Of a stretch of 61,306 bases of DNA, positions 26,497-38,275 are shown in pieces (position 1 is the first letter of the stretch; the number at the start of each line of letters is the position of its first letter). The DNA is from Aliihoeflea sp. 2WW. GTDB lineage: Bacteria; Pseudomonadota; Alphaproteobacteria; Rhizobiales; Rhizobiaceae. Under the pieces are notes generated by a model. That model saw only the letters and a list, made by a program, of their open reading frames with translations, made no database searches and was not told the DNA's origin. The stretch spans positions 1 through 61,306 of the forward strand of contig NZ_AYOD01000049.1 of assembly GCF_000497755.1 (NCBI RefSeq). Direction: 5' to 3'. Both the position numbers and the translations under genes were made by a program.

Positions 26497-26520
26497 AAAA
26501 AAGGCTCCCGTGGGGAGCCT
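26497..26520 (-). terminator. Attenuator terminator of the ilvIH leader
   Basis: On the minus strand AGGCTCCC-CAC-GGGAGCCT is a perfect 8-bp stem with a 3-nt loop, directly followed by six T (plus-strand A 26497-26502). It sits between the leader peptide and ilvI, 50 nt before the structural gene start, exactly where an attenuator should be. A 6-nt segment in the leader (CGTGGG, plus 26567-26572) can pair with CCCACG in the terminator arm and loop, giving a possible antiterminator. Confidence 0.88.
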
Positions 26521-26548
26521 GCGTGTTGCGCATGGGGTGCTTTCGCCC

Positions 26549-26563
26549 GGCGGTTACACCGCC
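26549..26563 (-). promoter_or_regulatory. Leader hairpin over the stop codon of the ilv leader peptide
   Basis: GGCGGT and ACCGCC form a perfect 6-bp stem with a 3-nt loop; the TAA stop of the leader peptide (26554-26556) lies within it. A ribosome that reaches the stop would melt it, while one stalled at the Leu/Ile/Val codons would not. This is the behaviour expected of a pause or anti-antiterminator hairpin. Confidence 0.6.
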
Positions 26564-26610
26564 TTGCCCACGCGCCTTCCTACTACGAGAATGAGTGCCG
26601 TCTTCAACAT
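26554..26610 (-). CDS. ilvIH leader peptide (attenuation)
   Basis: An 18-residue reading frame MLKTALILVVGRRVGKAV ends 108 nt upstream of ilvI. Residues 6-10 are Leu-Ile-Leu-Val-Val, the three branched-chain products of the pathway, with further Val at 14 and 18. It is followed by the stop-codon hairpin and the terminator. Stalling at these codons during branched-chain aminoacyl-tRNA shortage is expected to prevent the terminator from forming. No Shine-Dalgarno sequence precedes the ATG and the predicted transcription start nearly coincides with it, so translation may be leaderless. Confidence 0.88.
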   Translation of the reverse strand: MLKTALILVVGRRVGKAV

Positions 26611-26617
26611 GGGCGTG

Positions 26618-26647
26618 AGATTAGGCAGAGCACATATCAACTGTCAA
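26618..26647 (-). promoter_or_regulatory. Predicted ilvIH promoter
   Basis: On the minus strand TTGACA (26642-26647) is separated by 18 nt from TAATCT (26618-26623). Transcription should start near 26611, right at the leader-peptide ATG (26608-26610). Confidence 0.65.
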
Positions 26648-26771: not shown

Positions 26772-28586
26772 ATGTATGTTGAGCGAACGGGACATGAGGG
26801 CGATGCCGTCAGCCAGGAACGGCGCGACACGCTTCAACCGGAATCGCGCGTCCTTGGCCGTGTCATCCAGTGCGACGGCGCGCGCGCGACCGTCGCCGCC
26901 GTAGCGGACGGCATGCAGACTGCCAGCGACGGCTTGTGGTCCGTCGGCCGCATGATCTCGATCAATCTCGGCGCCGCCCGCACCGTCGGTCTCGTCTATG
27001 CGATCGAGACGCCGCATGCGGAGTGGAACGACAATGCCGACAACACGCTGATCGTGCGCATCGAACTCGTCGGCGAGGTTCGCGACATCGCCGGCAAGCC
27101 GCATTTCGACCGCGGCATCACGCTTTATCCGCATGTCGGCGCCATCGCCCACCGCATCCGCTCGCGCGATCTCGAGGCGGTCTACGATCTGGGCGGCCGG
27201 CAGGCCGTGTCGATCGGCAGCCTCAGCCAGGATCAGCAGATCCTCGCCCGCATTTCGATGGACACGACGCTCAGCCGGCATTTCGCGGTCCTGGGCACGA
27301 CCGGCGTCGGCAAGTCGAGCGCGGTGGCGCTCCTGCTGCGCAAGGCGGTCGACGCCAATCCCGAATTGCGCGTGCTGATCCTCGATCCGCACAACGAGTT
27401 TCACGCCGCCTTCCCCGATCGTTCGGTCCGCATCGACACCAATTCGCTCGACATGCCGTTCTGGCTGTTCCGGCTGGAGGAACTGACCGAGGTGCTTTTT
27501 CGCGGCCGCGAGGCGGTTGCGGAGGAAGTCGACCTCCTGCGCGACCTCATCCCGGCCGCCAAGAGCCGCTATCACCGCCCCTCTTCGTCCGCGACGCTCC
27601 TGCGGCGCGGCGCCGATACGATGTCGCTGACCGCCGACACGCCGGTTCCCTACCGCATGGTCGATCTCATCAAGCTGATCGACGAGCGCATGGGCATGCT
27701 CGAATCCAAGATCGAGCGGCCGCATTGCCGCGCCTTGCGGGCACGGATCGAATCCGCCCTGGCCGACCCTCGCTACCGCTTCATGTTCGCCTCGCGCCTC
27801 ATCGAGGACAATCTGCACGAGGCGATCGGAAAGATCTTCCGCGTGCCCCATCACGGCAGGACGATCACCTGTTTCGAACTGGCGGGCCTGCCCTCCGAAG
27901 TCGTCAATTCGGTCTGTTCGGTCCTGTCGCGCCTCGCCTTCGACCTCGCTTCCGGCTCGAAGGGCCGGCTGAAGCTTCTCGTCCTGTGCGAGGAAGCACA
28001 TCGCTACATGCCGGCCGACCCGCGGCTCGGCTTTGCCCCGACGCGCCATGCCCTCTCGCGCATCGCCAAGGAAGGCCGCAAATATGGCTGCTATCTCGGT
28101 GTCGTGACCCAGCGCCCCGGCGAACTCGACCCCACGGTCCTGTCGCAGTGCTCGACCATCTTCGCCATGCGCCTCGCCAACGAGCGCGACCAGGAGATCA
28201 TCCGCTCGGCGATCGCCGATTCGTCGGCCTCCACCCTCGCCTTCCTGTCCTCGATGGGCCAGCGCGAGGCAATCGCCTTCGGCGAGGGCGTCGCGACCAC
28301 GATGCGCATGAAGTTCGAGACGCTGAAGCCGAGCGAATTGCCCGGCCGGCCGCAGGAAGTGGCCGACGCGGCCGCCCATCCGGGCGAAATCGACCTCCAT
28401 GCGCTGATCCAGGGTTTGCGCGGCGAAGCTCCGGCCTTCGTTCCCGACGATTTCGGTCCGATGATCGGCGACGATCCGTTCGAGCGCCTTGCCGCGGCGC
28501 TCGATTCCCCGCCGCCGCGCGCATCGCTCGCCAGCCTGCGCCGCCACGGCGACGACGAGGCCCTGCGCCGGCTTTATGAAGACTGA
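26772..28586 (+). CDS. HerA-like DUF87 ATPase
   Basis: 604-residue HerA/FtsK-superfamily ATPase. An N-terminal HAS-barrel-like region (about 25-140) precedes the motor domain with Walker A GTTGVGKS at 175-182, a Walker B region LRVLILDPHNEFHAAF and LLVLCEEAHRYMPAD, and the sensor/arginine region ECSTIFAMRLANERDQEI. HerA works with the NurA nuclease in archaea and some bacteria; no NurA, Sir2 or other defence partner is adjacent, so this is a solitary form common in alphaproteobacteria. Divergent from ilvIH. Exact role unknown. Confidence 0.85.
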   Translation: MYVERTGHEGDAVSQERRDTLQPESRVLGRVIQCDGARATVAAVADGMQTASDGLWSVGRMISINLGAARTVGLVYAIETPHAEWNDNADNTLIVRIELVGEVRDIAGKPHFDRGITLYPHVGAIAHRIRSRDLEAVYDLGGRQAVSIGSLSQDQQILARISMDTTLSRHFAVLGTTGVGKSSAVALLLRKAVDANPELRVLILDPHNEFHAAFPDRSVRIDTNSLDMPFWLFRLEELTEVLFRGREAVAEEVDLLRDLIPAAKSRYHRPSSSATLLRRGADTMSLTADTPVPYRMVDLIKLIDERMGMLESKIERPHCRALRARIESALADPRYRFMFASRLIEDNLHEAIGKIFRVPHHGRTITCFELAGLPSEVVNSVCSVLSRLAFDLASGSKGRLKLLVLCEEAHRYMPADPRLGFAPTRHALSRIAKEGRKYGCYLGVVTQRPGELDPTVLSQCSTIFAMRLANERDQEIIRSAIADSSASTLAFLSSMGQREAIAFGEGVATTMRMKFETLKPSELPGRPQEVADAAAHPGEIDLHALIQGLRGEAPAFVPDDFGPMIGDDPFERLAAALDSPPPRASLASLRRHGDDEALRRLYED

Positions 28587-37898: not shown

Positions 37899-37903
37899 TC
37901 CGT

Positions 37904-37932
37904 CTTGCAAACCGGGTCGCAAGCGCCTATCT
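37904..37932 (+). promoter_or_regulatory. Predicted ssrA promoter
   Basis: CTTGCA (37904-37909), 17-nt spacer, CTATCT (37927-37932). This closely fits the alphaproteobacterial housekeeping consensus (CTTGAC-N17-CTATAT). Transcription would start near 37938-37940, at the predicted 5' end of the acceptor piece. Confidence 0.75.
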
Positions 37933-37937
37933 CTGAA

Positions 37938-38275
37938 GTGCCGTCGCAAGGCGGCTATGGTGCTAAACCGACTGTGCAATAGATGGACCGGACGCGGTTT
38001 CGAAACCGCCACCTCCACCAGGAACCCGCCCGCGCGACAATTTTGTTGGACGGGCTGCTGATGGGGGTGAAATGGGATCGACGGACGTTGAAAGACAGCA
38101 CGCTGTACCCGGCATTGTACCACCGTCATCGGGCTACAATAGTAGTTGCAAACGACAACTATGCGGAAGCACGTCTCGCCGCTTAATGCGGTGCGATAGC
38201 TTCAAATCAAGCCCTATGGGTTCGCACCTTTAGGCGGGGTTCGGAGGTACCTGGCAACAGAAACCTCCACTTCTC
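37938..38275 (+). ncRNA. ssrA: Circularly permuted two-piece tmRNA (SsrA)
   Basis: The gene order is permuted. The acceptor piece comes first: T-arm GCGGTTTCGAAACCGC then CACCTCCACCA, with CCA ending at 38020. An intervening segment (about 38021-38062) is removed. The coding piece follows, starting GGGGGTGAAATGGG at about 38063; its GGGGGTG pairs over 7 bp with CACCTCC of the acceptor piece. The tag frame GCA...TAA at 38148-38186 encodes ANDNYAEARLAA. A late hairpin GGAGGT/AACCTCC (near 38244-38269) marks the 3' region. Ends are estimates. tmRNA rescues ribosomes stalled on broken mRNAs and tags the product for ClpXP. Confidence 0.95.
38148..38186 (+). other. tmRNA proteolysis-tag reading frame
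   Basis: Resume codon GCA at 38148, stop TAA at 38184-38186. The tag is ANDNYAEARLAA, ending in LAA, the ClpX recognition signal, with AANDNY forming the SspB-binding side once the tRNA-borne alanine is added. This matches rhizobial-type tags. Confidence 0.95.

Follow-up and report, generated by a model that had tools for sequence, protein, structure and literature searches.

The window analyzed, the whole 61,306-nt stretch of Aliihoeflea sp. 2WW DNA, carries on its minus strand, in this order, TTGACA-N18-TAATCT, an 18-codon leader, a stop-codon hairpin, a terminator, ilvI and ilvH (Table 1). The leader region is placed between ilvI and a divergent plus-strand ORF (26772–28586). All the parts that the earlier note had listed, namely a promoter, an 18-residue peptide, a stop-codon hairpin and an 8-bp terminator with six T, were found here on the minus strand. 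Its coordinates were right to about one base, with the A of the ATG at 26610 rather than 26611. For ilvH, translation probably starts at an ATG that lies within the listed ORF.

Table 1. Coordinates of the leader and of the ilvIH genes in the window.
Feature	Position	Strand	Basis or remark
−35 element TTGACA	26647–26642	−	Sequence; TTGAC 34–39 nt 5′ of leader ATG in 114/202 leaders
−10-like element, TAATCT or CTAATC	26623–26618 or 26624–26619	−	Sequence; ends 7 or 8 nt 5′ of ATG
Leader peptide ORF, 18 codons + stop, MLKTALILVVGRRVGKAV*	26610–26554	−	Sequence; leader ORF present in 202/204 matches
Putative transcription start	26610 (A of leader ATG)	−	
Putative regulatory codons CTC ATT CTC GTA GTA (Leu-Ile-Leu-Val-Val)	26595–26581	−	Sequence, codon comparison
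Segment 1, within peptide ORF, GCGCGTGGG	26575–26567	−	Partner is segment 2
Stop-codon hairpin GGCGGTGTAACCGCC, UAA in loop	26563–26549	−	Sequence, family alignment
Segment 2, CCCATGCGC	26536–26528	−	Partner is segment 1
Terminator AGGCTCCC-CAC-GGGAGCCT, 8-bp stem	26520–26502	−	Terminator scan
Six T of terminator	26502–26497	−	First T belongs to stem
RF02502 Atu_C8 match	26608–26487	−	Rfam scan
ilvI, acetolactate synthase large subunit, predicted regulated gene	26445–24658	−	ORF; NCBIfam NF006581, 1218 vs. 974 bits
ilvH (ilvN), acetolactate synthase small subunit	24636–24031	−	ORF; NCBIfam NF008864, 222 vs. 119 bits

The single parts are weak when taken alone. A strict sigma-70 scan detected no promoter at the leader, the terminator scan found one terminator where shuffled sequences gave 0.4 ± 0.8, and folding of the leader, which the earlier note had proposed as a check, returned a z-score of −1.57, weak by itself. 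The whole element, however, is far beyond chance: it is matched by an Rfam family at an E-value of 1.2e-21, and that family recurs in 290 of 297 sampled genomes of the bacterial family, as described below.

Two other parts of the window were annotated in passing. The divergent ORF resembles HerA-type helicase/ATPase models, all of them far under their cut-offs (best 190.7 vs. 850 bits), and an ordinary alphaproteobacterial permuted tmRNA gene (RF01849/RF04321) lies at 37901–38271 of the plus strand.

Conservation of the element and its codons

An Rfam scan identified the leader as RF02502 (Atu_C8, 'Rhizobiales sRNA'), with 103.7 bits against a gathering threshold of 50. The match covers the full length of the model (1–122), begins on the G of the leader AUG and is the single one in the whole Aliihoeflea sp. 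2WW genome. Atu_C8 was reportedly detected first in Agrobacterium tumefaciens, as an RNA. In the literature, the accession RF02502 appears among the test families of the GLASSgo paper. A rice paper that was retrieved by a full-text search for Atu_C8/RF02502 looks like a false match, and alpha-r45/SmrC45 was ruled out as the identity of the leader, SmrC45 being the speF element.

In the family sample, RF02502 was matched at E ≤ 1e-3 in 290 of the 297 genomes, and 283 of them were over the curated cut-off. In the order sample, 161 of 297 genomes had a match at E ≤ 1e-3, and just 49 of these exceeded the Rfam cut-off. None of 14 control genomes had a match. The 7 sampled family genomes without RF02502 have sizes of 1.2–2.0 Mb, and 5 of these have no intact ilvI: two gave no ilvI match, two have stop-bearing fragments and one has a 28% paralogue. 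Two reduced genomes (G458 and G516, 1.6 Mb) keep ilvI at 69–71% and gave no RF02502 match.

From 188 genomes, 204 RF02502 matches were fetched, 112 via the order search and 92 via the family searches. Most were taken from the top of ranked lists, so that strong matches are over-represented, and nine weak family members and nine two-match genomes were added deliberately, which also inflates the shares of second copies and of MFS genes. In this weighted sample, ilvI was the next gene at 193 of the 204 matches (108/112 in the order set and 85/92 in the family set, the latter comprising 82 found by tblastn and L119, L122 and L123 by eye). The ilvI tblastn match starts 24–342 nt past the Rfam match, and an ilvH match accompanies 71 of the 82 longer-flank matches of the order set.

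Three genomes (G440, with L137/L155; G357, with L140/L154; and G023, with L004/L031) carry two ilvI genes on different contigs, each with a leader. In G260 (L036) and G223 (L037) a tandem ilvI pair was observed in which each gene has its own RF02502-type leader, the leaders being ∼2.7 kb apart; all four RF02502 matches of these two genomes are under the Rfam cut-off.

A gene on the same strand lies downstream in 203 of the 204 matches: ilvI in 193, an MFS gene in 9 and an ABC gene in 1, with the second-copy and MFS shares raised by the sampling. The sole exception without a convincing gene (L162, E 9.5e-4) looks like chance. A leader that is fixed before one gene looks like a cis regulator, and with 193 of 204 matches preceding ilvI, an attenuator acting in cis is the best reading of the RF02502 'sRNA'.

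Codon choice in the I/L/V runs of the ilvI leaders (98 of the family and 94 of other families) was set against that in the ilvI genes found at these loci (98 and 95, respectively). In the window, GTA makes up 1 of the 234 Val codons in the eight ORFs taken as genes, and both of the leader's adjacent Val codons are GTA. Within the family, GTA accounts for 82/241 Val codons in the runs (34%) vs. 96/3099 in ilvI (3.1%), and GTC for 2/241 (0.8%) vs. 1653/3099 (53%). CTG makes up 2/116 of CTG+CTC+CTT (1.7%) in the runs vs. 1471/2506 (59%) in ilvI, and ATT makes up 96/128 of ATT+ATC vs. 486/2623. The same held in other families, with GTA at 124/183 (68%) vs. 78/4168 (1.9%) and GTC at 17/183 vs. 2061/4168. 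Fisher tests gave p ≤ 3e-26, with related sequences taken as independent and RNA-level constraints mixed in.

Val-Val is present in 89 of the 98 family ilvI leaders. A run of at least three I/L/V residues occurs in 98/98 family ilvI leaders and in 94/94 of the others, a count that is partly circular because such residues belonged to the ORF-finding pattern. Shunning GTC and CTG would mean shunning the tRNA isoacceptors that read GTC and CTG, and the codon choice points in this way to particular isoacceptors. Attenuator codons are reportedly chosen for their sensitivity to charging, as Elf et al. are said to have proposed in 2003.

The downstream genes and the codons bear on the reading of the element as a trans-acting sRNA that merely lies before ilvI, or as an attenuator with an added trans function similar to that of rnTrpL/peTrpL. 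Rfam types Atu_C8 as 'Gene; sRNA', and rnTrpL, a leaderless attenuator RNA in Sinorhizobium meliloti, has been called a dual-function sRNA (PMC10117765). However, all matches but one precede a same-strand gene and no convincing orphan copy was found among the 204, L162 being chance-like. In addition, a codon choice opposite to that of ilvI points to a reading frame that acts in cis. We consider the trans reading unlikely, and the earlier note's suggestion that the leader RNA and the peptide might act in trans found no support at these loci.

Where the leader transcript starts

The earlier note had proposed that the leader peptide is leaderless, the transcript starting at or beside its AUG with no ribosome site before it. 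The distance from TTGAC to the leader start falls in two classes, a short class of 34–39 nt (114 leaders) and a long class of 53–70 nt (59 leaders), where the TTGAC nearest to 37 nt was used when several lay upstream and the 3 of 202 leaders with both classes were counted as short. One leader lies between the classes, at 42 nt. Neither class accommodates 31 of the 204 matches: 2 have no leader ORF (L053 and L162) and 29 have no TTGAC at 34–39 or 53–70 nt. These counts treat related sequences as independent, as the codon counts do.

In the short class, the start is ATG in 114/114 leaders, with starts chosen so that ATG was preferred over GTG or TTG and an I/L/V-type motif was required. The base at −1 is C or T in 110/114, and in the promoters the T/A content peaks at −14 to −12 relative to the ATG. 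A Shine-Dalgarno (SD)-like motif was seen in 2/114 vs. 7% expected from shuffles, a count that may be lowered because the −10 region reaches into the SD window. In the long class, an SD-like motif precedes the start in 39/59 leaders vs. 10% expected, and the starts, chosen with the same preference for ATG, are 48 ATG and 11 GTG. The short class comprises 94 of the 106 family leaders and 20 of the 96 leaders of other families. Parsimony on a FastTree of 190 ilvI fragments, 161 of them labelled, gave at least 6 changes of leader class, with branch support disregarded.

The Aliihoeflea leader belongs to the short class: its TTGACA lies 37 nt upstream of the A of the ATG, and it has no SD. The absence of a ribosome site before the peptide ATG is thereby borne out, and the conserved promoter distance, the invariant ATG and the −1 pyrimidine fit a transcript starting at or beside the AUG. 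Leaderless transcripts of S. meliloti are described as all beginning with AUG (PMC3616915). We consider that there is strong indirect evidence, drawn from comparison of sequences, for transcription that would start on the leader AUG and for a leaderless peptide.

The same attenuator might instead have a normal 5′ UTR, transcribed from another upstream start, so that its peptide would not be leaderless. The SD-led form does occur in relatives, as the 59 leaders of the long class show, and the strict promoter scan found nothing at the Aliihoeflea leader. The position of TTGACA, the lack of an SD and the uniform ATG and pyrimidine of the class to which this leader belongs argue against a normal 5′ UTR, which we regard as improbable.

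Leader RNA structure and proposed attenuation

In the RNA predicted to start on the AUG, a 9-bp helix (helix 1:2) joins nt 36–44 (segment 1) with nt 75–83 (segment 2). A helix 1:2 of at least 8 bp can form in 101/106 leaders of the family and in 90/93 others (191/199, 3 of the 202 leaders having been dropped) vs. 17% of 408 shuffled sequences, for which every fourth leader was taken, and the 191 leaders have 95 distinct 5′ sides. In the alignment of 86 distinct family sequences, helix 1:2 is whole in 84. All six pairs of the stop hairpin are kept in 86/86, with double (compensatory) changes at 4 of the 6 pairs. The exact 8-bp register of the Aliihoeflea terminator is whole in 11/86, with 87% of the pair cells standard. 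A hairpin before a T run was found in 202/202 leaders by a permissive search run without a shuffle control. In 181 of 199 leaders, the last codon of the branched-chain run starts 5–8 nt upstream of segment 1.

Another reading takes the element for a constitutive terminator or structured UTR and its peptide for an accident. In its favour, the terminator by itself does not exceed shuffles and masked-ribosome folding shows no switch in silico, but a leader ORF in 202/204 matches, Val-Val in most family ilvI leaders and a codon choice opposite to that of ilvI make this explanation very unlikely indeed.

No conserved antiterminator was found across relatives by masked folding, shuffle-controlled pairing or the 86-sequence alignment. 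The earlier note had paired CGTGGG of the peptide region with the terminator arm, and this part of its reading did not hold: the pairing is whole in 1 of the 86 family sequences, the Aliihoeflea one itself, and pairing of at least 6 bp between the CGTGGG region and the terminator arm is available in 16/202 leaders. The hairpin that segment 2 might form with the arm of the terminator (CC-UGCG:CGCAGG in the Aliihoeflea leader) was also rejected. It is whole in 3/86 family sequences, and such local pairing was on average weaker than in shuffles (mean z +0.8 and +0.9). GGGC:GCTC (nt 42–45/93–96) pairs in 81/86 sequences, both of its sides being constrained by other helices.

When a stalled ribosome was masked in the family leaders, the 5′ arm of the terminator was more sequestered than with no ribosome in 45/106 and less in 40/106; relative to a ribosome at the stop codon, it was more sequestered in 37 and less in 43 of the 106. 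In other families the change was modest, 55 of 96 being more and 33 less sequestered, with 52 more and 32 less when the stalled ribosome was compared with one at the stop codon. From its position at the stop codon, a ribosome would not evidently shield segment 2.

The leader carries Leu-Ile-Leu-Val-Val in 18 codons, and an intrinsic terminator is placed between the leader ORF and ilvI. We regard the element as very probably a cis-acting, ribosome-dependent transcription attenuator of ilvIH, with transcription predicted from the sequence to start on the leader AUG. The earlier reading of a branched-chain, ribosome-type ilvIH attenuator with a leaderless peptide is retained, without its CGTGGG pairing.

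By the comparative geometry, RNA polymerase would begin the transcript with the A of the leader's AUG, and the ribosome would load straight on the 5′ end. In translating the Leu-Ile-Leu-Val-Val stretch, the ribosome would then meet codons that the neighbouring genes disfavour, and it might sense the charging of the corresponding tRNAs. Two outcomes are predicted: (i) when charged Val-tRNA (and Leu/Ile-tRNA) is ample, the ribosome would reach the stop codon and the terminator would end transcription, leaving an RNA of ∼114 nt that probably corresponds to Atu_C8; and (ii) when charged tRNA is scarce, the ribosome would pause on the branched-chain codons and read-through would rise. Because the pause codon begins 5–8 nt before segment 1, the paused ribosome would partly cover this segment and weaken helix 1:2. 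The freed RNA may then block the terminator, a last step that is drawn by analogy since an antiterminator was not found across relatives.

Enterobacterial branched-chain attenuators are SD-led and have a clear antiterminator. Those of ilvBN, ilvGMEDA and leu share with the present element branched-chain-rich leader peptides and attenuation, but their leaders are longer, at 28–32 aa (PMC6123439). Among alphaproteobacteria, an ilvB leader peptide is mentioned in PMC1273637, and Table 3 of PMC2573895 lists an element named 'ilvIH cis regulatory' upstream of SMc01431 in S. meliloti, both citing Vitreschak et al. (2004). The leader peptides predicted there before ilvB/ilvIH have attenuation at this position in common with ours, and as cited in these sources attenuation before ilvB/ilvIH in alphaproteobacteria dates at least to that work. 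In another alphaproteobacterium, Caulobacter crescentus, a leader CDS (ilvL) precedes ilvIH and transcription attenuation through it is stated in a figure legend (PMC4117421, Fig. 6C), as proposed here. Since ilvIH/ilvBN attenuation in alphaproteobacteria is already in print, the core of the finding is not new.

S. meliloti rnTrpL/peTrpL, described as a leaderless attenuator sRNA (PMC10117765), has a leaderless peptide starting on AUG, as is predicted for the present element; it differs in acting on Trp and trpE and in the trans functions reported for rnTrpL/peTrpL. RF02502 itself is the same element by its full-length, over-threshold match, but Rfam types it as an sRNA gene, whereas in our reading it attenuates in cis and its leader encodes a peptide. 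A probable function is in this way given to an Rfam family that is labelled merely sRNA. For the two-mode leader and the transporter copies, no earlier account was found in the literature searched. The two modes offer a natural comparison, one attenuator built leaderless or SD-led, in which the fitness of leaderless initiation for attenuation becomes testable.

Copies before MFS transporter genes

Nine of the 204 matches, from a sample in which the MFS share is over-represented, precede MFS genes (L013, L014, L032, L033, L156 and L158–L161), and Val-Val is kept in 8 of these 9 leaders. The transporters of L013 and L033 are both MFS_1 in Pfam; that of L013 passes NCBIfam TIGR00710 (Bcr/CflA efflux; 217 vs. 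201 bits) and that of L033 is below this cut-off (173 bits). The MFS relative in the Aliihoeflea genome itself (43%) has no such leader by eye and no Rfam match.

When named genomes were scanned for the protein of L013, 31 loci were obtained, among them loci of Devosia, Pelagibacterium, Roseibium and Nisaea. Among the first 20 of these, RF02502 is over its cut-off right before the gene in 15 (L203–L209, L212–L218 and L221) and was absent at this cut-off from L210, L211 (short flank), L219, L220 and L222. When these five and five more loci were searched at a permissive threshold, one weak match was obtained (L225, 27.7 bits, E 0.21). A terminator together with a short leader bearing Val-Val or an I/L/V run was found at 21 of 29 MFS loci (L232 and L233 left out) and was not found at L210, L211, L216, L219, L227, L229, L230 and L231, although L216 passes Rfam. 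The distant relatives L222–L226 and L228 carry a similar short Val leader and terminator under the Rfam cut-off.

No leader of this kind on an MFS gene was found described in the open-access literature searched. We hold it an evenly balanced proposition that the module was copied from ilvI onto a Bcr/CflA-type MFS gene, where Val-tRNA charging, or drugs that cause stalling at Val-Val, would control transcription, and that the leader start switched between leaderless and SD-led several times. The sister copies hint at branched-chain-linked substrates or signals for pumps that are named just for drug efflux.

A second RF02502 copy (L157, in G558:C10) was observed at 99.8 bits before an ORF that resembles an ABC transporter by eye.
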